Virus record (IMG/VR): IMGVR_UViG_3300025120_011018
Coordinates: 1-33,383 of that record
Reading direction: 5' to 3' (one strand)
DNA length: 33,383 nucleotides
DNA from: a virus
In this document: piece by piece, positions 5,801 to 31,364 of the stretch
How the letters are laid out: each line of letters starts with the position of its first letter
Position numbering within the stretch: position 1 is the first letter of the stretch
Position numbers and translations under genes: made by a program
The notes under the pieces: model-generated
The model's database searches: none
What the model was told of the DNA's origin: nothing
Seen by the model: only the letters and a program-made list of their open reading frames with translations

Positions 5801-6555
5801 AATTTCAAATACCAGCAGAAACTTTACTTAGGCGAGGGCAATACTTTCCTTATTTGCTTAAAAACTTTGACTGTATAACAGTTAATAATGAATCAGAAAT
5901 AGACCCTGACCGTATAGTTGTTTGGGGAGCACCATTTGACCAGTACATACATGATGCTATAAAGAAATTTCAATTGGATTACTTCTACATGGACAATGGC
6001 TATATTGGTAATTGGAATTACAAGAAGCCTTGGTATGTTAGAATATGCTACAACAATCTACAAAATGCTAAAGTAGGAACTCCGGGCAAAAGTCGTATAC
6101 AAACATTAGAACTAGACAGGTTTGAAGATTGGAATGCAGAAGGCGAATACAATTTGTTTATGACACCAATAGATAATAAATTTTTTAGTTGGTTTGGTAA
6201 AGATTACGACACATGGAGGAAAAATACTATTCAGCATTACCAAGATACAGGTGTGCCTCTAGTCATACGTGACAAGCCAGGCGGCCGTGCAAGTCGTTCA
6301 ATGCGTTTTGACGAGCTACCAGATATAATGCGTAAGGCTAAGAAAGTAATTACACATCATAGTATAGGAGCAGTAGAAGCACTGTGTTTAGGAAAGCCAG
6401 TTGAGATACTAGGAGTAAGTGCAGTAGAACATTGGCAGAATCAATTTGGGTTTGACCGAACACCAATGCTAGAACATATTGCACACTGTCAGTTTAGCAG
6501 AGATGAACTAGAAGATGGCACTGCTTGGAAAGTAACAATGGAGTATCAACAATGA
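5797..6555 (+). CDS. Capsular polysaccharide-type glycosyltransferase-like protein
   Basis: The 252-residue product has features of capsule polysaccharide (KpsC/KpsS-like, GT-B) transferases: an N-terminal Rossmann-like part with RIVVWGAPFD and YFYMDNGYIGNW, a central segment with VPLVIRDKPGGRAS, and a C-terminal ITHHSIGAVEALCLGKPVEI motif, which is the usual place where the nucleotide-sugar is gripped. It is short for the family, so it may be a minimal version. It sits between a GT25-like gene and a radical SAM gene and overlaps both, in line with a glycan-building operon. The family call is at fold level; the substrate is unknown. Confidence 0.55.
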   Translation: MKFQIPAETLLRRGQYFPYLLKNFDCITVNNESEIDPDRIVVWGAPFDQYIHDAIKKFQLDYFYMDNGYIGNWNYKKPWYVRICYNNLQNAKVGTPGKSRIQTLELDRFEDWNAEGEYNLFMTPIDNKFFSWFGKDYDTWRKNTIQHYQDTGVPLVIRDKPGGRASRSMRFDELPDIMRKAKKVITHHSIGAVEALCLGKPVEILGVSAVEHWQNQFGFDRTPMLEHIAHCQFSRDELEDGTAWKVTMEYQQ

Positions 6556-7541
6556 GATATCCAGCTCACTTTCCAGATGATCACCCAGATGATCCGCGTA
6601 CCTATGTTCCAAATATTGAATTTTATATTACTAATGTATGCAATATCGCTTGTCCTCAATGTAATCGCTTTAACGACTACAACTTTAAAGGGCATCAAAA
6701 ATGGAGTGACTACGAAGCAGAATATACTCAGTGGGCAACCAAGATTAGATTGCAAAAGATATGCATACTAGGTGGTGAACCGTTGCTGAATCCAACTATT
6801 GTTGATTGGATAAAAGGTATTAATCGATTGTGGGACAAAAAGGTACAAATTCTATCCAATGGTACAAGGCTGAATCATGTCAAAGGACTTTACAGAGCAA
6901 TGTTTTTTGAAAGCCCTTATCCTGGCAATGGTCTAGGTGAATTAAAAAATTGGATTGGAGTAAGTGTACACAATGCAAACGATCTTGAGCGCCATTTTGA
7001 GGAAGGTCATAAATTCTTAGAAGGCAATGTCAAGTTATACAATGGTACACGCAACGAAGAAAATGAACAAACCTGGGGTGCAGATTATGCTCTAGTGGAT
7101 GAAAACAGTGTAAGAGTGCATTATTGGGTAGAAAACCAGTTTACACAGTCAGCAGTCCAACGAGATCCTATGACAAACAAGTTTACATTACACAACAGTA
7201 TACCGCAACAGGCACACGACGAATGTGAGTTTGTTAATAGTATGTGTCATCATTTTATCAAAGCAAAATTATACAAGTGCGGACCAGCTGGTTTATTGCC
7301 TGAATTTGATAACCAGTTTACATTTGACATATCTAAATCAGATAGAAAAATACTACACAGTTATGAACCATTATCGGTACATGAATTTGCCCAGAGGGGC
7401 AAACAGTTCATAGATAGTATAGATGATGTAATTGATGGATGTAAATTTTGTCCAAGTAACCGAATGCCTCTGGAGACAATAGAAAGTTTGAACAAAAAGA
7501 GAAATTCAACAAGCAGTTTTACAGACGTTCAAAAAAAATAG
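6552..7541 (+). CDS. Radical SAM enzyme, twitch/SPASM-like C-terminus
   Basis: From ATG 6552 (overlapping the upstream TGA) the product is 329 residues. The iron-sulfur motif CNIACPQC (Cys 30, 34, 37) follows the strand IEFYITNV, and ILGGEPLLNP at about 72-81 is the GGEP SAM-binding motif; ILSNGTRLNHV follows. The C-terminal third has several more Cys (CEFVNSMCHH, KCGPAG and DGCKFCPSNR), suggesting a second cluster or zinc site as in twitch/SPASM-type enzymes. A longer TTG start at 6525 exists but lacks support. It is too long and differently organised to be QueE. Placed among glycosyltransferases, it may modify a sugar or peptide; the reaction is not known. Confidence 0.75.
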   Translation: MRYPAHFPDDHPDDPRTYVPNIEFYITNVCNIACPQCNRFNDYNFKGHQKWSDYEAEYTQWATKIRLQKICILGGEPLLNPTIVDWIKGINRLWDKKVQILSNGTRLNHVKGLYRAMFFESPYPGNGLGELKNWIGVSVHNANDLERHFEEGHKFLEGNVKLYNGTRNEENEQTWGADYALVDENSVRVHYWVENQFTQSAVQRDPMTNKFTLHNSIPQQAHDECEFVNSMCHHFIKAKLYKCGPAGLLPEFDNQFTFDISKSDRKILHSYEPLSVHEFAQRGKQFIDSIDDVIDGCKFCPSNRMPLETIESLNKKRNSTSSFTDVQKK

Positions 7542-14030: not shown

Positions 14031-14761
14031 TGAGAGACTTTTTACTAGACTTAGTTGAACACAGCTATGACTTAGGTTGTATTGACCTAATTAAAATTAC
14101 AGGTACAGATACTGATACAAGTGTAGATGGGCTAGCCGAAGATAAAAGTGTTGTGTTACAAGCAAAGTTTCATAAACCTGTTGCTGACTATATTGGGACA
14201 TTTGGTATGCCTAATTTAGCAAAACTAAAAATACTGCTTAACATAGGCGAATACAAGGAAAACGCAGAGATTTCTGTTAAACGTCAAGAACGCAATGGTG
14301 AACAGGCACCAGTTGGACTACACTTTAAAAATGCCGCAGGTGACTTTAAAAACGACTACAGGTTTATGGTTAGTGAAATTGTAAGTGAAAAGCTCAAAGG
14401 TGTTAAGATGAAAGATGTGCCTTGGGATATTGAGTTTGAGCCAACAACTGCAAGTATTATGAGATTAAAAATGCAGGCACAAGCAAATGCTGAAGAAACG
14501 ACATTTGAAACAAAAACCGAAGATGGACATTTAAAGTTCTTGTTTGGTGATCATAGCACACATGCAGGTGACTTTGTGTTCCAACATGATGTTGGCGGTA
14601 AGTTAACTAAAGCATGGAGTTGGCCTGTGCAACAGTTTATAGCAATTATGAACTTAACCGGTGACAAAACTGTAAGAATAAGTGACAGTGGTGCAACTAA
14701 GATAACAGTTGATTCAGGCATTGCAGTTTACAATTATATACTTCCAGCACAGAGCAAGTAA
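14030..14761 (+). CDS. 45: Sliding clamp (gp45-like processivity factor)
   Basis: 243 residues, near the 228 of T4 gp45. It starts with helix DFLLDLVEHSYDLGCIDLIK, has alternating strand patterns throughout, MPNLAKLKILLNIGEYKENA in the position of gp45's DLNGFLGILSLV-like strand-helix, and a C-terminal strand set ending GIAVYNYILPAQ. It lacks catalytic motifs, as expected of a trimeric DNA-encircling clamp that tethers polymerase and, in T4, activates late transcription with gp33/gp55. Location after gp43 supports it. The TAA overlaps the ATG of the DpdA-like gene, so clamp and base-modifying enzyme are translationally coupled. Identification rests on pattern and context and not on a signature residue. 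Confidence 0.75.
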   Translation: MRDFLLDLVEHSYDLGCIDLIKITGTDTDTSVDGLAEDKSVVLQAKFHKPVADYIGTFGMPNLAKLKILLNIGEYKENAEISVKRQERNGEQAPVGLHFKNAAGDFKNDYRFMVSEIVSEKLKGVKMKDVPWDIEFEPTTASIMRLKMQAQANAEETTFETKTEDGHLKFLFGDHSTHAGDFVFQHDVGGKLTKAWSWPVQQFIAIMNLTGDKTVRISDSGATKITVDSGIAVYNYILPAQSK

Positions 14762-16224
14762 TGCTGGTACAAGACAACCTAACTGATAAGCAAAGCGATT
14801 ATGCAATATTTTTGCCAGCAATAAGCAGTTTCTATGCAACCTATATTGGTGCAGAACGTTATCCAGACAAGGTCAAAAGCATAATTGGTGATAGGTTGCC
14901 TAAAGGTATTCCTAATATGGAAGCAATGAATTGGCTTAACAAACAAGAAGCATTGTTTCCTTACAAGTGGAGCCTATACAGTGCTGGACATGCTAACATG
15001 GATTTGACTGTGCATGTACCTAAAGAAGATATGGTACGTGGTAGAAGTGCTGATACACTTATGGTTGCTGACTCAGGTGGATTCCAGATTGCAAAAGGCG
15101 TATGGCCGGGTGCGTGGGCTGATACAAAAGACAAAGCAGCACAAAAGAAACGTGAAGCAGTTATCAAATGGCAAAGTGGTATTGCAAACTATGGTATGAC
15201 ATTGGATATCCCAACATGGACGTACTTGGATCCAAAAGCAAGTGAAGCATGTGGTATTAAAAGTTATCAAGACGCAGTTGATGCAACACTGTTTAATAAC
15301 GAATTCTTTATGGAAGCCAGAGGCAAAGATCTAAAAATACTAAACGTGCTACAAGGTTCAAATCACACAGAAGCAGATAGTTGGTATGATACTATGAAGA
15401 AGTTCTGTTCAGACAAGTATGACAAGCCATTTGATGGTTGGGGTATGGGTGGACAAAACATGTGTGACCTACATCTTATACTACGTCGTTTGGTTACATT
15501 AATACATGAAGGCTTGTTAGAAAAAGGTCAACATGATTGGATGCACTTTTTAGGCACAAGCAAACTAGAATGGGCATTGTTGCTTACTGATATACAACGC
15601 AGTGTTAGGCGACATGCAAACAATAACTTTACAGTAAGTTTTGACTGTGCATCTCCTTTCTTAGCAACTGCAAATGGACAGGTATACACAAGACTCCGTG
15701 CAGACGACAGAGGTAAAAAATGGAGTTACTTGATGGAAGCCACTGCTGATAATAAAAAGTATGCATATGGTACAGATAAGTTTAGTGATGTTGTAATGCG
15801 TGATGGCATACATGAACGCTTTGATGATAGTCCAATCAGTGCTGGATGTACTATCGGAGATATTTGTAAGTATGGCCCAGGTGATCTAAATAAGATTGGC
15901 AAAGAAGGTGCAACCAGTTGGGATAGTTTTAGTTATGCACTGCTTATGGGACACAATGTATGGCAACACATATATGCAGTACAAGAGTCAAACAGGCTGT
16001 ATGATCAAGGGATCATGCCTAGTATGCTAGTAAACGATACCTTTACAAAGATTACTGTACGTGACGTAATAGATGAGGTGTTTGCACAGAAAGACCTAAA
16101 CAAGAGTATGAACTTGTTAGACAAGCATAGCAAGTTATTAGATAGTGTAATTGGCGGATCAAGAGGCACAACTGGTAAAAAAATTGTCAATAGTAAAACA
16201 CAATTTAATGCATTATTTGATTGA
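14761..16224 (+). CDS. dpdA: DpdA-like DNA 7-deazaguanine transglycosylase
   Basis: 487 residues of tRNA-guanine transglycosylase (TGT) superfamily. VADSGGFQIAKG at about 102-113 is the TGT DSGGFQ motif (Asp104 as active-site acid); LNVLQGSN at 194-201 and GWGMGGQN at 226-233 match the substrate-pocket LQG and GG segments; TVSFDCASPF has Asp295 in the nucleophile position. The TGT zinc site (CxCxxC...H) is reduced to Cys363, Cys369 and His398. Such phage-type proteins (DpdA) exchange guanine in DNA for a 7-deazaguanine such as preQ0 and so resist restriction. It overlaps the sliding clamp by one base, and FolE (25736) and a QueD-like gene (30909) in the same window supply precursor steps. A tRNA-modifying role is less likely given these neighbours. 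Confidence 0.8.
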   Translation: MLVQDNLTDKQSDYAIFLPAISSFYATYIGAERYPDKVKSIIGDRLPKGIPNMEAMNWLNKQEALFPYKWSLYSAGHANMDLTVHVPKEDMVRGRSADTLMVADSGGFQIAKGVWPGAWADTKDKAAQKKREAVIKWQSGIANYGMTLDIPTWTYLDPKASEACGIKSYQDAVDATLFNNEFFMEARGKDLKILNVLQGSNHTEADSWYDTMKKFCSDKYDKPFDGWGMGGQNMCDLHLILRRLVTLIHEGLLEKGQHDWMHFLGTSKLEWALLLTDIQRSVRRHANNNFTVSFDCASPFLATANGQVYTRLRADDRGKKWSYLMEATADNKKYAYGTDKFSDVVMRDGIHERFDDSPISAGCTIGDICKYGPGDLNKIGKEGATSWDSFSYALLMGHNVWQHIYAVQESNRLYDQGIMPSMLVNDTFTKITVRDVIDEVFAQKDLNKSMNLLDKHSKLLDSVIGGSRGTTGKKIVNSKTQFNALFD

Positions 16225-17525: not shown

Positions 17526-17942
17526 ATGATACAAGAAGATCGTAACATTATTGAAACAAACAAGTCAAATGCAAGTAGAAAGATATGGGTAACATTTCAA
17601 AAGGAAGGCTTACATAAGTATCCAGCCGCACTTGATGATCCTATGTTAGCAACTGGCGACGAATTTGATGTAAGTTTTTTAGGTTATATTCACAGACACA
17701 TATTCAAGTTTAGAGTAGCAATAGAAGTGTTTCATGATGATAGAGATATAGAGTTTATACAATTTAAACGTTGGTTGGAAAAACTATATACAGAAAAAAC
17801 ACTAGAATTAGATTACAAAAGTTGTGAAATGATAAGTGATGATTTGTATACACACATAGCCGCTAAATATCCTGGTAGAGCCGTAACTATCGAAGTAAGT
17901 GAAGATGGTGAAAACGGTTGTGAGGTTAATTACAACAGGTAA
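17526..17942 (+). CDS. Hypothetical protein, possible T-fold (PTPS/QueD/QueF-like)
   Basis: The start at ATG 17526 follows AGGAG at 17516-17520; a longer frame from 17484 is possible but lacks such a site. The 138-residue product has KIWVTFQKEGLHKYP, then YIHRHIFKFRVAIEVFHDDR (His56 and His58), DIEFIQFKRWLEKL, SCEMISDDLYTHI (Cys100, Glu101) and VTIEVSEDGENGCEVNY. The order resembles the T-fold plan: HxH strand, V-DF-LK segment, a helix with an anchoring Glu, and a final strand with E...G..Y. I infer, weakly, a pterin/deazapurine-type T-fold; the protein is common in marine myoviruses and otherwise without function. Confidence 0.55.
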   Translation: MIQEDRNIIETNKSNASRKIWVTFQKEGLHKYPAALDDPMLATGDEFDVSFLGYIHRHIFKFRVAIEVFHDDRDIEFIQFKRWLEKLYTEKTLELDYKSCEMISDDLYTHIAAKYPGRAVTIEVSEDGENGCEVNYNR

Positions 17943-17947
17943 CAATA

Positions 17948-18235
17948 ATGATTTGGGAGACATTTGTATTATGCTTGGTAATCTTATTATGTATAGTGGC
18001 GGCCATGAGTATAGGCCTCCTGAGAGGCCTACGTGTAAAAGGCAGTTGCGGTGGTGCTACAGGCGTTTGCTCTGTATGTGGCAAAGACAATGCAAAAAAG
18101 CCAAGTAGACTAGAACAAATGAAGAAAGATCCTAATAGACGTATTGACAGTGACGACATGACTGAAGTTGAAAAAATGGATGCAGGTTTCACACATGGAA
18201 CTTATAATATAAACGGCAGAGATGTGGACTTCTAA
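17948..18235 (+). CDS. nqrM: NqrM-like Na+-NQR maturation protein
   Basis: 95 residues. Residues 5-25 form one membrane helix (FVLCLVILLCIVAAMSIGLL), followed by a basic GLRVKGSCGG and Cys34, Cys41 and Cys44 in SCGG...CSVCGK. This is the plan of NqrM (DUF539): one helix, AM-x-IG, KGSCGG and a Cys cluster. NqrM is needed to place the iron between NqrD and NqrE of the Na+-pumping NADH:quinone oxidoreductase. The C-terminal tail (LEQMKKDPNRRIDSDDMTEV) is longer than usual and acidic. It would sit in the host inner membrane. In a phage this would be an auxiliary metabolic gene. It is directly followed by guaC. Confidence 0.7.
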   Translation: MIWETFVLCLVILLCIVAAMSIGLLRGLRVKGSCGGATGVCSVCGKDNAKKPSRLEQMKKDPNRRIDSDDMTEVEKMDAGFTHGTYNINGRDVDF

Positions 18236-19273
18236 ATGAGAATAGAACAAGATATAAAACTAGACTACAAAGACGTATTATTTAAACCAAAACGCAGTAC
18301 ACTCGAAAGTCGACGTGAAGTGCGTTTAGAAAGAACTTTTAACTTTCACAACAGTGGACAACAGTGGGTTGGTGTGCCTATTATGGCTAGCAACATGGAT
18401 GGCGTTGGTACGTTCTCAATGGCTAAAGTTTTACAAGAACACAAAATGTTAACAGTTATCCGTAAGCACTACAGTTTAGAACAGTGGCAAAAGGCCAAAG
18501 GCGTAAAGATGCAATACGTAAGTGTTTGCACAGGTACTGCGGCCATATGGAACGATGATGCAGTTGATTATCAAACAATGCGAGCCGTACTTGCAATGTA
18601 TCCAGATATTCCATTTATTACTGTTGATGTTGCTAATGCTTATCACGAAAACTTTGGACACTTTATAGCAAGACTTAGAGATGAGTACCCTGATAAAACA
18701 ATTATTGCAGGTAATGTTATCACTGGTGAGATGACTGAAGAACTAATCATACGTGGTGCTGACATAGTAAAGTGTGGTATTGGTCCTGGATCAGTATGCA
18801 CCACAAGATTAATGACTGGTGTAGGTGTTCCGCAACTGAGTGGTATAATTGAATGTGCAGATGCCGCAAACGGTATCGGTGGACACATTGTTGCTGATGG
18901 TGGTTGTGTATATCCAGGTGATGTTGCAAAAGCATTCGGAGCAGGAGCACACATGGTAATGCTAGGCGGAATGTTAGCAGGATCAGATGAATCAGAAGGC
19001 AAAGTGGTAGATGGCAAAATACAGTTTTATGGTATGAGTTCTGATACTGCAATGGAAAAGCACGGCAATCGCAAGGATGGTTATAGAGGTGCAGAAGGCA
19101 AAGTCGTTGAACTACCGTACAAAGGCGCAGTTGAAAAAACTGTTACTGAAATACTAGGTGGTGTAAGAAGTGCATGTACCTACATAGGTGCAAGACGCAT
19201 CAAAGACATGCCAAAGTGTACAACATTTGTACGTTGTTTACAAAATGTAAATGATGTGTTTGGTAGACAATAA
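18236..19273 (+). CDS. guaC: GMP reductase
   Basis: 345 residues, near E. coli GuaC (347). The TIM barrel of the IMPDH/GMPR family is seen: DYKDVLFKPKRSTLESRREV at the N-terminus (GMPR signature), VPIMASNMDGVGT, VKCGIGPGSVCTTRLMTGVG with the catalytic Cys188, HIVADGGCVYPGDVAKAFGA for phosphate binding, and IQFYGMSSDTA (about 262-272). There is no CBS pair, which favours GMPR over IMPDH. GMPR reduces GMP to IMP with NADPH and releases ammonia. In a phage with deazaguanine genes it could shift purine pools; direction and purpose are inferred. Starts right after the NqrM-like stop, overlaps the next ATG. Confidence 0.9.
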   Translation: MRIEQDIKLDYKDVLFKPKRSTLESRREVRLERTFNFHNSGQQWVGVPIMASNMDGVGTFSMAKVLQEHKMLTVIRKHYSLEQWQKAKGVKMQYVSVCTGTAAIWNDDAVDYQTMRAVLAMYPDIPFITVDVANAYHENFGHFIARLRDEYPDKTIIAGNVITGEMTEELIIRGADIVKCGIGPGSVCTTRLMTGVGVPQLSGIIECADAANGIGGHIVADGGCVYPGDVAKAFGAGAHMVMLGGMLAGSDESEGKVVDGKIQFYGMSSDTAMEKHGNRKDGYRGAEGKVVELPYKGAVEKTVTEILGGVRSACTYIGARRIKDMPKCTTFVRCLQNVNDVFGRQ

Positions 19274-25735: not shown

Positions 25736-26425
25736 ATGACAACTTCAGAAATAATAGCAAACAGACTAAAAAAAGCAAACAAAAGATATTGGGCTGGTGA
25801 TAACATCAGTGGGTATCTGCATGATGGTGAAAAAGAAGCACTTATAGAAGAACTTACACCAAAGTTTGAAGCAGTGTTAGATGGCTTGGTGATTGACAGA
25901 CATAACGATCCTAACAGTATGGACACAGGTAGACGTCTAGCAAAAATGTACATCAATGAACTCATGAGTGGTAGGTACAATCCTATGCCTAATGCAACTG
26001 CATTTCCTAACACAGACCAAGATGCATACAAAGGTTTACTAGTGGTGCGTAGTGAGATCAAAAGTATGTGTTCGCATCATCATCAGCCAGTTTCAGGTGT
26101 TGCATACATTGGAATACTTGCCGCTGAACAATTGATTGGATTAAGCAAGTACACAAGAATTGCACAGTGGTGTGCAAGAAGAGGCACACTACAAGAAGAA
26201 CTAAACAACGACATTGCCAAAGAGATTATGAGAGCAACTGGTAGTGAAGATGTAGGTGTTTATATACAAGCAACACATGGTTGTTGTGAAAACAGAGGCA
26301 TAGGAGCTCACAGCAGTTTAACACAAACAACTGTGCTTAAAGGTGCTTTCTACAATGAGATAATAACCAAGACAGAATTTATGGATAATATCAAAATGCA
26401 ACAACAATTTGCATGCGGAAATTAG
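25736..26425 (+). CDS. folE: GTP cyclohydrolase I
   Basis: 229 residues, near E. coli FolE (222). SMCSHHHQPV (Cys112, His114-116) and HGCCENRGIG (His181, Cys183) give the zinc and catalytic residues (E. coli Cys110, His112, His113, His179, Cys181). IGLSKYTRIAQWCARRGTLQ is the family core, HSSLTQTT the ending. FolE opens GTP to 7,8-dihydroneopterin triphosphate, the first step for folate and for 7-deazaguanine (preQ0). With a QueD-like gene at 30909 and DpdA at 14761 it most likely serves DNA 7-deazaguanine modification. Driven by a strong consensus promoter. Cytosolic decamer or similar, as in the family. Confidence 0.95.
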   Translation: MTTSEIIANRLKKANKRYWAGDNISGYLHDGEKEALIEELTPKFEAVLDGLVIDRHNDPNSMDTGRRLAKMYINELMSGRYNPMPNATAFPNTDQDAYKGLLVVRSEIKSMCSHHHQPVSGVAYIGILAAEQLIGLSKYTRIAQWCARRGTLQEELNNDIAKEIMRATGSEDVGVYIQATHGCCENRGIGAHSSLTQTTVLKGAFYNEIITKTEFMDNIKMQQQFACGN

Positions 26426-26523: not shown

Positions 26524-27591
26524 ATGAAACTACTTAAATTATTGATAGTTGCACTATCAGTTATGTTTTTCAGTGTTGCACATGCTGGAGATAAAATTAA
26601 AGTAGGATTTATCTATGTTGGCCCTACAGGCGATCATGGATGGACCTACAGACATGACATTGGACGTCAAGATGTTGAAAAACATTTTGGTGACAAGGTT
26701 GAAACCACTTATATTGAGAGTGTAAAATACGGACCAGATGCTGAAAGAGCAATCAGGATGATGGCTCAAGAAGGTGCAGATATTATATTTGCTACAAGTT
26801 TTGGTTATATGGATCCTATGTTAAAAGTTGCAAAAGAATTTCCAAATGTAAAGTTTGAACATGCAACTGGTTATAAGCAAAGTAAAAACATGTCCAGTTA
26901 CGGATTAAGATTATATCAAGCAAGACATGTACAAGGTGTTATTGCTGGTATGATGACCAAGACTAACAAGATTTGTTATGTTGGTGCATTTCCAATTCCA
27001 GAAGTTATTCGTGAAATCAACACATACTACTTAGGTGCTAAGAGTGTAAATCCAGATGTTGACATTGACATTGTATGGGTAAACACTTGGTATGATCCAG
27101 GTAAAGAAGCACAAGCGGCTAAGGTTATGATTGCAGAAGGTTGTGATATGGTTGCTCAGCATACTGATTCACCAGCACCATTACAGACTGCAGAAAAAGC
27201 AGGTGTACTTGGTTTTGGTCAAGCAAGTAATCAATATAAGTTTGCTCCTAAAGCTCAGTTGACTGCAACTATTGACAACTGGTCACCATACTATATTGAT
27301 AAAGTACAAGCAGTCATTGATGGTACATGGAAGAGCGGTGATTACTTTGGGCATATGAAAGATGATGTTGTGCAAATGGCACCATTTACTAACATGCCAG
27401 CAGAAGTTGAAGCCTTTGCACAAAAGATCAAAGATGGTATAACTAACGGCAAGTACTTTGCATTTACAGGGCCAATCAAAGACAACACAGGTAAACTACG
27501 GTTGAAAGACGGCGAGATTGCCGACGATGGTCATCTTAACAGTATGATGTACTATGTCGAAGGCATTGATGCAAAAGTGCCAGGAAAATAA
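26524..27591 (+). CDS. Secreted BMP/PnrA-family solute-binding protein
   Basis: 355 residues with a clear Sec signal peptide: KLLK, hydrophobic core LLIVALSVMFF, then SVAHA as a likely cleavage site at about 21. The mature part is the BMP family (PF02608-type, PnrA/Med): KVGFIYVGPTGDHGWTYRHD, ADIIFATSFGYMDPMLKVAK, a DMVAQHTDS segment binding the ligand, and TIDNWSPYYIDKVQAV. BMP proteins bind purine nucleosides in several bacteria and feed ABC transporters. No lipobox Cys is seen, so it is periplasmic and not lipid-anchored, as in Gram-negative members. Phage-encoded periplasmic binding proteins are unusual. The leader carries hairpins and a late-type promoter. Ligand not determined. Confidence 0.85.
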   Translation: MKLLKLLIVALSVMFFSVAHAGDKIKVGFIYVGPTGDHGWTYRHDIGRQDVEKHFGDKVETTYIESVKYGPDAERAIRMMAQEGADIIFATSFGYMDPMLKVAKEFPNVKFEHATGYKQSKNMSSYGLRLYQARHVQGVIAGMMTKTNKICYVGAFPIPEVIREINTYYLGAKSVNPDVDIDIVWVNTWYDPGKEAQAAKVMIAEGCDMVAQHTDSPAPLQTAEKAGVLGFGQASNQYKFAPKAQLTATIDNWSPYYIDKVQAVIDGTWKSGDYFGHMKDDVVQMAPFTNMPAEVEAFAQKIKDGITNGKYFAFTGPIKDNTGKLRLKDGEIADDGHLNSMMYYVEGIDAKVPGK

Positions 27592-30143: not shown

Positions 30144-30900
30144 TGAAGAATTAATTGAAGCAATAAAACGTCCAGATAGATACTATCACGTAACCATTGG
30201 CGGTTATGGCGGCGAAACTACATATACACGTATATCACAAGCGGCATATATGCATTGGGCTGATAAAGAAGAAAGTGAATTAGAAAGTTATATGGGTAGC
30301 CCAGAAAGTTACGTTGAAGATGAAGATCCAGACTTGCCAGCAGAAGCAAACTTTTTATACAATGCAGAAGAAGAATACTACCATGACTGGTATGAAGCAC
30401 CAGATGAATTAGAACATGGTTGGGGTGTAGACATTGATAGCAGTTGGATCACTGTCGAAGAACGTGACGGTGAAGAATATCAAAGCAAACATCTTGCCGA
30501 TATAGTTGACACAGTTGATACTCCAGTGTATATTAAAGATAACAATATAGAAAAAGACGAAGGTGAACTTGATCTTGATGCACTATTGTACCCAAATGGT
30601 CACTATGAAGAAGATGATGAAGATGGTGAAGAAGGAGAACCAAAGCCATTAGATGATGGTACTGTTCCAGAGCCATATGTGTTTTATGGTTGCAGTGCAG
30701 AGAAAGGTACATTCTTTGATGGCGTTGTACACGTAGATGACGGAAGTAAGTTTGATGCAGAGAAACTAAAATTCTTTGTTGAAGCACAACCAAACGGTGA
30801 TACTATTATTTCAGAAGTAACATACAATGGTGAAGCTATTGATAACAACGGTGGAGACACCACAGGCAAAGGCTATTATGCAAGTGTCTGGGATTGGTAG
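30133..30900 (+). CDS. Acidic hypothetical protein
   Basis: 255 residues from ATG 30133 (a GTG at 30124 is in frame too). Very acidic, with a repeat-like EEDDEDGEEGEPKPLDDG stretch near residue 160 and a C-terminal domain PYVFYGCSAEKGTFFDGVVH. YYHVTIGGYGGETTYTRISQ at the N-terminus suggests a small strand-rich fold. I recall proteins of this kind in marine T4-like phages, without a function. No membrane segment. An internal TTGACA/TATATT pair (30506-30534) may help express the queD-like gene. Confidence 0.55.
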   Translation: MATDEELIEAIKRPDRYYHVTIGGYGGETTYTRISQAAYMHWADKEESELESYMGSPESYVEDEDPDLPAEANFLYNAEEEYYHDWYEAPDELEHGWGVDIDSSWITVEERDGEEYQSKHLADIVDTVDTPVYIKDNNIEKDEGELDLDALLYPNGHYEEDDEDGEEGEPKPLDDGTVPEPYVFYGCSAEKGTFFDGVVHVDDGSKFDAEKLKFFVEAQPNGDTIISEVTYNGEAIDNNGGDTTGKGYYASVWDW

Positions 30901-30908
30901 GAGAAAGT

Positions 30909-31364
30909 ATGGCGTACTTTAGTACAAAAACATATGGACATAACATTGGACTTAGTGCAGTGTTTAGACAACCGCATGCGGATCATTCGCATTGCAAATA
31001 TTTACATGGTTATAGTTTAGGATTTAAGTTTACCTTTGCATGTAGCAGTTTAGATAATAAAAACTGGGCAGTTGACTTTGGTGGATTAAAGCCATTAAAA
31101 AAATGGTTAGAAGATACATTTGACCATAAACTTGTGCTTGATGAGAATGATGATAAACTGCATCACTTTCATGTATTAGAAGATGCAGGGCTATGCCAAA
31201 TAACAATACTAGATGGTGTTGGTGCAGAAATGTTTGCCAAACATGCATACGATTTTGCTAATAAACTTATTACCGAACAAACAGACAACAGATGTTGGGT
31301 GCATTCAGTTGAATGTATGGAACATGGTGCAAACAGTGCAATTTACAAAAGGATTACAACTTAA
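30909..31364 (+). CDS. queD: QueD/PTPS-like 6-carboxytetrahydropterin synthase
   Basis: ATG 30909 follows TAGGAGAAA. 151 residues of T-fold type. Matching the family: [20 protein letters not shown] then GYSL (Cys29, His33), [15 protein letters not shown] (Asp56), TFDHKLVL (Asp72, His73), and [13 protein letters not shown] with Glu138 in place of the catalytic Glu. Two usual zinc ligands differ: the first His is Phe19 and the second His of HGH is Tyr35. His23, His26 and His28 may replace them; the pattern recalls a phage-type QueD group. QueD makes 6-carboxytetrahydropterin from dihydroneopterin triphosphate, the product of FolE. It should serve preQ0 synthesis for DNA modification. Overlaps clpP by one base. 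Confidence 0.8.

Follow-up and report, generated by a model that had tools for sequence, protein, structure and literature searches.

Introduction

SDHAF4 (DUF1674, PF07896; PDB 8DYD and 8DYE) is an assembly factor of complex II. In human SDHA-SDHAF4 structures, its terminal residues D107 and F108 enter the active site and bind SDHA H407/R451, with D107 mimicking a dicarboxylate; changes at this end impair binding and block the displacement of SDHAF2 (PMC10784507). Both residues are strictly conserved among SDHAF4 homologues (PMC10784507). NqrM (DUF539, PF04400), the second system considered here, is a maturation factor of NQR in which a single N-terminal helix is followed by GSCGG and, downstream, by a cysteine pair (CxxC or CxC).

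Phage takeover of photosynthesis and of nucleotide metabolism is well known. To our knowledge, takeover of respiratory-complex assembly is not a known phenomenon, and our literature search found no paper on it. Here we describe a 95-aa phage protein that may let a virus adjust host respiration. Its gene lies in a 33,383-nucleotide stretch of viral DNA (IMG/VR record IMGVR_UViG_3300025120_011018), referred to throughout as the window.

Results

The 95-aa ORF at 17948-18235 (+) starts with an ATG at 17948, runs through its stop codon to 18235 and encodes MIWETFVLCLVILLCIVAAMSIGLLRGLRVKGSCGGATGVCSVCGKDNAKKPSRLEQMKKDPNRRIDSDDMTEVEKMDAGFTHGTYNINGRDVDF. The initial annotation, which was made from the sequence alone, read it as an NqrM-like maturation factor. 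The ORF is confirmed exactly where that annotation placed it, and the single membrane helix, the AMxIG motif (AAMSIG, residues 18-23), KGSCGG (residues 31-36) and the Cys-x2-Cys pair (C41 and C44) are all present.

17948..18235, + strand: coding sequence of 95 aa, joining an NqrM-like domain to the phage C-terminal Asp-Phe module (ORF and relatives)
17951..18028, + strand: single membrane helix, residues 2-27 (AF2 model; aligns with the NqrM helix)
18038..18055, + strand: KGSCGG motif, residues 31-36 (its GSCGG varies neither among the phage proteins nor in NqrM)
18068..18079, + strand: C41-S-V-C44, the CxxC of alphaproteobacterial NqrM (SAR116: CSVCNKD)
18236..19273, + strand: GMP reductase/IMPDH family gene, abutting 3' neighbour (PF00478, 233 bits)

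The upstream ORF ends at 17942, leaving a gap of 5 nt before the ATG. Any function shared with the adjoining GMP reductase/IMPDH gene is putative. An AF2 model of the protein has a pLDDT of ~90 over residues 1-20 and places a terminal hairpin, at low confidence, in the tail.

Direct searches with the window protein found no match in Pfam, NCBIfam or isolate phages, and a PHROG search returned three matches, all above E 0.06. Because the protein alone matched nothing useful, a family was built from IMG/VR, where two scans recovered relatives on ~40 viral contigs at 44-99% identity. A profile scan of bacterial genome contigs found no bacterial relative of this family, and a PDB profile search with it gave no meaningful match. 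In the family alignment the N-domain is conserved and the ends are exchangeable; G32-S33-C34-G35-G36 and C44 are invariant, and C41 is nearly so. The relatives on ~40 contigs, these invariant motif residues and a tail dN/dS of ~0.04 exclude a chance ORF, and 17948-18235 is a genuine gene.

The relatives lie in several unrelated neighborhoods, some of whose gene labels were assigned by eye: DNA polymerase and clamp, a primase/helicase region, terminase, ClpS/nucleotidyltransferase and an Amt-like transporter. A phage-encoded ClpS adaptor is found near the NqrM-like gene in several contexts (L065:4770-5084, PF02617, 103 bits; L005:7408-7716, by eye), and an ammonium-transporter-like ORF, also labeled by eye, is directly 3' of it at L026:188-1378.

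The tail had initially been described as an unusual, extended and acidic one. Its length is borne out; its acidity is not, since ~10 D/E are balanced by 9 K/R in residues 51-95, leaving no net acidity. What was taken as an odd extension is a distinct phage module, which occurs as a stand-alone gene elsewhere and whose place is taken in sister phages by an SDHAF4/DUF1674 peptide.

18104..18232, + strand: phage C-terminal module, residues 53-95 (separate ORF in L066; 122 viral relatives)
18191..18232, + strand: terminal peptide THGTYNINGRDVDF, SDHAF4-like in register, with the Asp-Phe end (D94-F95)

L066 has a tail-less NqrM-like gene and, ~200 bp downstream of it, a second gene of 62 aa that encodes the window-type tail separately. 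This tail has 122 relatives in IMG/VR, and the best 80 of these 122 are mostly stand-alone small proteins; in the stand-alone forms it follows short, basic and apparently amphipathic N-termini. Nearly all of the relatives end in Asp-Phe. The comparison of 49 distinct tails shows this end in every one, a count that left out tails not ending in DF (one such is known, in L323/L325, ending in DFS); these 49 DF-ending tails also have R, K, G, T, N and G, each at its fixed position, without exception. Purifying selection on the tail is strong (dN 0.058, dS ~1.5).

The window protein ends as SDHAF4 strictly does, in Asp-Phe. Scored against an SDHAF4 matrix (PSSM), its tail reaches 5.4, compared with a maximum of -11.3 among 920 control ORF C-termini, and 28 of 200,000 shuffles of the tail's own letters reached that score. 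Profile comparison of the window-type tail with SDHAF4 (hhalign) gives a weak match, 16.5% over 11 columns, in register, with a score of 16.0 against a shuffle maximum of 14.3. The window protein has no DUF1674 match over the 23.5-bit cut-off, and the PEPTRYGDW core is absent from its tail, which has THGTY. The similarity to SDHAF4 is confined to the last 11-14 residues, and these comparisons do not prove that the two tails share an ancestor.

Three sister phages (L024, L030 and L065) have the same NqrM-like N-domain with the tail RPEPTRYGTWESKG[TR][DE]VDF. The SDHAF4/DUF1674 peptide carried on this domain, PEPTRYGTWESKGREVDF, is unmistakable: L024 (23.6 bits) and L065 (29.0 bits) pass the DUF1674 cut-off, the L065 tail matches the human SDHAF4 of 8DYD/8DYE, and the PEPTRYGDW core is found as PEPTRYGTW in the sister fusions. 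Window-type and SDHAF4-type tails do not co-occur in 25 records, an exclusivity that lends weak support, given the incompleteness of the records and the rarity of either tail. Isolate-phage searches with both tail types gave no match.

SDHAF4-type ends are present on 53 viral contigs; many stand alone, in dozens of marine contigs, and others are attached to different proteins. In L276, L267 and L259, both domains score over their Pfam cut-offs in one frame.

L276:2782-3078: SDHAF4/DUF1674 tail fused to a CHCC zinc finger (complex-I-type)
L267:2428-2943: SDHAF4/DUF1674 tail fused to an A-type Fe-S carrier
L259:1928-2482: SDHAF4/DUF1674 tail fused to a NUDIX protein
L257, L244, L262, L279: SDHAF4/DUF1674 tails fused to carriers of no known kind

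The L276 protein matches human SDHAF4 at 8e-8 and also, weakly, NDUFS6. A sample of the contigs with SDHAF4-type tails is of phage origin by neighboring genes (DNA polymerase, UvsX, helicase, exonuclease, tail sheath, terminase). An IscU/NifU-like scaffold gene (L267:4216-4602) lies on the same contig as the SDHAF4-tailed Fe-S carrier. On L065, a CHCC zinc finger (L065:5831-6004; NDUFS6/complex I type, PF10276, 39.6 bits) is directly 5' of the NqrM-SDHAF4 fusion, and L065:8505-9557 encodes a second kind of solute-binding protein, TctC-like by eye, with no Pfam match at E up to 1.

Because the two tails are swapped on the same carrier, we take the window tail and the SDHAF4 end to be putative functional equivalents, and the exchange suggests complex II no less strongly than NQR. 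The explanation that we favor, tentatively but as a quite plausible one, is that the 95-aa protein is a membrane-anchored, NqrM-derived Cys domain that would present an SDHAF4-like peptide to host complex II. It is also conceivable, if rather unlikely, that the NqrM-like part is a mere membrane anchor and that the tail has a partner other than SdhA, such as another flavoprotein or a phage factor. The occurrence of the tail alone, behind short basic N-termini, would fit such a partner, as would the short reach of the SDHAF4 similarity. Against it, three distinct viral contigs have a bona fide SDHAF4-type peptide at the same carrier site, which would not be expected if the partner were random, and the phage's own DNA polymerase, with a potential clamp-binding C-terminus, ends otherwise (...FNSLFEFE).

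The kinship of the front half with NqrM was examined against 12 reference sequences from annotated records, most of them adjoining nqrF or apbE.

17948..18097, + strand: NqrM-like N-domain, residues 1-50 (hhalign 98.6-99.0%; BLASTP to SAR116 NqrM)

The phage family matches annotated NqrM at 98.6% (hhalign, score 82.4), whereas whole-column shuffles of the phage alignment score at most 32.6. The median score falls to 50 when the helix alone is scrambled and to 43 when the Cys loop alone is scrambled; both therefore contribute to the match. When SAR116 NqrM is added to the reference profile, the match rises to 99.0%, and the phage family is closest to the NqrM of SAR116 bacteria: identity to SAR116 NqrM is 52% over 50 residues for the relative L021 and 41% over 51 residues for the window protein (BLASTP). 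The window protein shares with NqrM the single N-terminal helix followed by GSCGG, and C41-x2-C44 corresponds to the downstream cysteine pair. A profile search against DUF539/NqrM, proposed initially as a check, bears out the relationship for the family and not for the single protein: relatives at the location of this gene match PF04400 (best L021, 20.0 bits; curated Pfam cut-off 22 bits), and the window protein has no PF04400 match. Matches to MauE (17/25 members, helix region only, all under cut-off) were taken as noise, and zinc-finger and FlgM matches were likewise under cut-off.

The fourth cysteine of NqrM, that of CPEPC in gammaproteobacteria and of LxCxR in alphaproteobacteria and SAR116, is present in 11 of the 12 reference sequences (L078 deviates) and in nearly all SAR116 NqrM. 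In our alignment, this cysteine and the NqrM C-terminal half are absent from every phage relative. Homology of the N-domain to NqrM is established by these profile comparisons; the full protein is not assigned to NqrM, because the fourth cysteine and the C-terminal half are missing. The identity first suggested thus holds for the N-terminal 50 residues and not for the whole protein. Neither nqr nor apbE lies beside the gene in the window, where its neighbors are an unidentified ORF and the GMP reductase gene, and the same is true of the other phage contexts inspected.

The source is a marine, T4-like (jumbo-related) phage that probably infects SAR116 alphaproteobacteria. Its polymerase is nearest to those of the Phosso/Atu_ph07 jumbo phages of alphaproteobacteria, and one relative of the 95-aa protein sits on a 328-kb contig. 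The SAR116 link, which we consider probable, rests on one transferred gene.

26524..27591, + strand: Bmp/PnrA-like periplasmic substrate-binding protein, host marker (PF02608)

This protein has ~87% amino-acid identity to five SAR116 genomes (81% nucleotide identity) and is kept in sister phages at 90-96%. The likely hosts carry SdhA, SDHAF4 and, in part, NQR. NqrM is encoded in two of the five Bmp-matching genomes, and one of these two has nqrM with apbE and the full nqrABCDEF set, the genes being identified from their sequences; of 121 genomes from SAR116's order, 25 have an NqrM match and 96, many of them incomplete, have none. SdhA is over cut-off in 5 of 6 SAR116-type genomes, and SDHAF4/DUF1674 is present in most SAR116 genomes examined. 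The nqr genes, a search for which in likely hosts had been proposed initially, are thus present in some of them. Neither a cysteine cluster without an NqrM match nor a host clade without NQR was found, because the N-domain is homologous to NqrM and SAR116 includes genomes with both NQR and NqrM. The window may also contain a 7-deazaguanine set, noted by eye, at 14761-16224, 25736-26425, 30894-31364 and 6525-7541 (labels: tRNA-guanine-transglycosylase-like, GTP cyclohydrolase I-like, QueD-like and a radical-SAM-like ORF); the tRNA-guanine-transglycosylase-like protein has no Pfam match at E up to 0.01.

With such hosts, the gene could encode an NqrM proper: by supplying NqrD/NqrE with iron it would keep up or raise the activity of the host's sodium pump, with the tail in an accessory role. 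The clear N-domain homology, the nqrABCDEF-apbE-nqrM set in the likely host clade and the presence of NqrM in 25/121 genomes of the order speak for this, as does L226:2204-2706, where a 4Fe-4S-type ferredoxin gene comes directly after a tail-less NqrM-like phage gene and overlaps it by 4 bp. We nevertheless judge it unlikely, given the fourth cysteine and C-terminal half missing in all phage relatives, the 96/121 order genomes (many incomplete) with no NqrM match, the absence of nqr/apbE as neighbors in the phage contexts inspected, and an amino-acid constraint far stronger on the tail than on the N-domain.

Assignment to the FeoB-associated proteins (PF12669), or to some other unrelated group of small, generic, Cys-rich membrane proteins, is very improbable: L028 reaches 17.7 bits (E 0.0044) and 6/25 members match weakly, but every score is under the 27-bit cut-off, GSCGG and the helix spacing agree with NqrM, and a profile comparison of 28% against 99% for NqrM (hhalign, with two FeoB-associated sequences only as control) disfavors this identity.

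The dS of the N-domain is unusually low, which we traced to codons 20-49 (18005-18094). Third positions here are 80-97% identical in most relatives, compared with 53-83% in flanking genes, and GC content is 51% against 37% for the window.

18012..18031, + strand: hairpin TAGGCCTC-CTGA-GAGGCCTA, 8-bp perfect, GC-rich, inside codons 20-49

Among relatives, the hairpin takes the form GGCCTC-CTRA-GAGGCC. The conserved segment is common to phages of differing gene contexts, being absent from L021 and only partly present in L014, and its conservation would be explained by recent spread of the segment among phages or by a nucleic-acid constraint. For all the third-position identity and the GC-rich hairpin, it is highly improbable that an overlapping gene or nucleic-acid element, and not the protein, drives conservation: an overlapping reading frame was rejected because stop codons interrupt it in L001 and L066, the protein is preserved through different codons in L021 and L014, the fold z-score is only -0.7, and the segment is found in this gene family alone.

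Discussion

Our preferred explanation, presentation of an SDHAF4-like peptide to host complex II, can be outlined as follows. Residues 1-50 would provide an NqrM-derived helix and an iron-binding-type cysteine motif (GSCGG...CxxC), and residues 53-95 a phage Asp-Phe module that would do the job of the SDHAF4 C-terminus. We infer that the helix would lie in the host inner membrane and that the Arg/Lys-rich side would face the cytoplasm, where the cysteines and the tail would also be. The Asp-Phe terminal peptide could then enter the dicarboxylate site of host SdhA, as it does in SDHAF4, and the docked peptide would hold or steer SdhA at the membrane, such that complex II assembly or activity may be altered during infection. 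This alteration could go in either direction, as inhibition or as promoted membrane assembly. Anchoring would be the task of the NqrM-like part, which may in addition carry iron or make contact with NQR.

We further put forward, more guardedly, the possibility that marine phages use a portable, SDHAF4-mimicking C-terminal peptide, with Asp-Phe as the dicarboxylate mimic, to seize host SdhA, grafted on varied small carriers: the NqrM-like membrane anchor here and, in other phages, a zinc finger of the NDUFS6 type, an Fe-S carrier or a NUDIX protein. In that case, one phage gene would link the NQR side of the host's respiratory chain to its complex II side. If the tail binds SdhA, phages would have turned the active-site plug of an assembly factor into a transferable tag, offering a direct handle on viral redirection of the TCA cycle and of electron flow in SAR116, an abundant clade. 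The system would also test which part of SDHAF4 suffices for function, because evolution has cut out and grafted its C-terminal 20-36 residues several times.

The protein can be compared with several known systems. FeoB-associated proteins (PF12669) are likewise small, with a single helix and cysteines downstream of it, but have no GSCGG and match poorly by profile. NqrM shares the N-terminal helix, AMS[IL]G and [KQR]GSCGG, and the alphaproteobacterial NqrM also shares the CxxC (CSVCNKD in SAR116, CSVCGKD in the window protein). Unlike NqrM, the phage proteins have a loop ~5 residues shorter without the fourth Cys, a C-terminus exchanged for a phage module, a score under the Pfam cut-off and no adjoining nqr/apbE. 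With SDHAF4, the window tail shares the G-x3-D-F chain end and an aromatic residue 10 residues from the terminus; it differs in having no PEPTRYGDW, a conserved upstream block of its own (R-x-D/N-S...EKMDxGF) and a membrane helix as anchor. The DUF1674-tailed proteins of other marine phages (L267, L276, L259 and L257/L244/L262/L279) differ in that their carriers are soluble or enzymatic rather than NqrM-like membrane proteins and their tails are nearer to SDHAF4 than that of the window; they too carry an SDHAF4-type C-terminal peptide on differing small proteins. In the sister phages, a true PEPTRYG[DT]WExKGRxxDF tail of SDHAF4 is joined to the same NqrM-like carrier.
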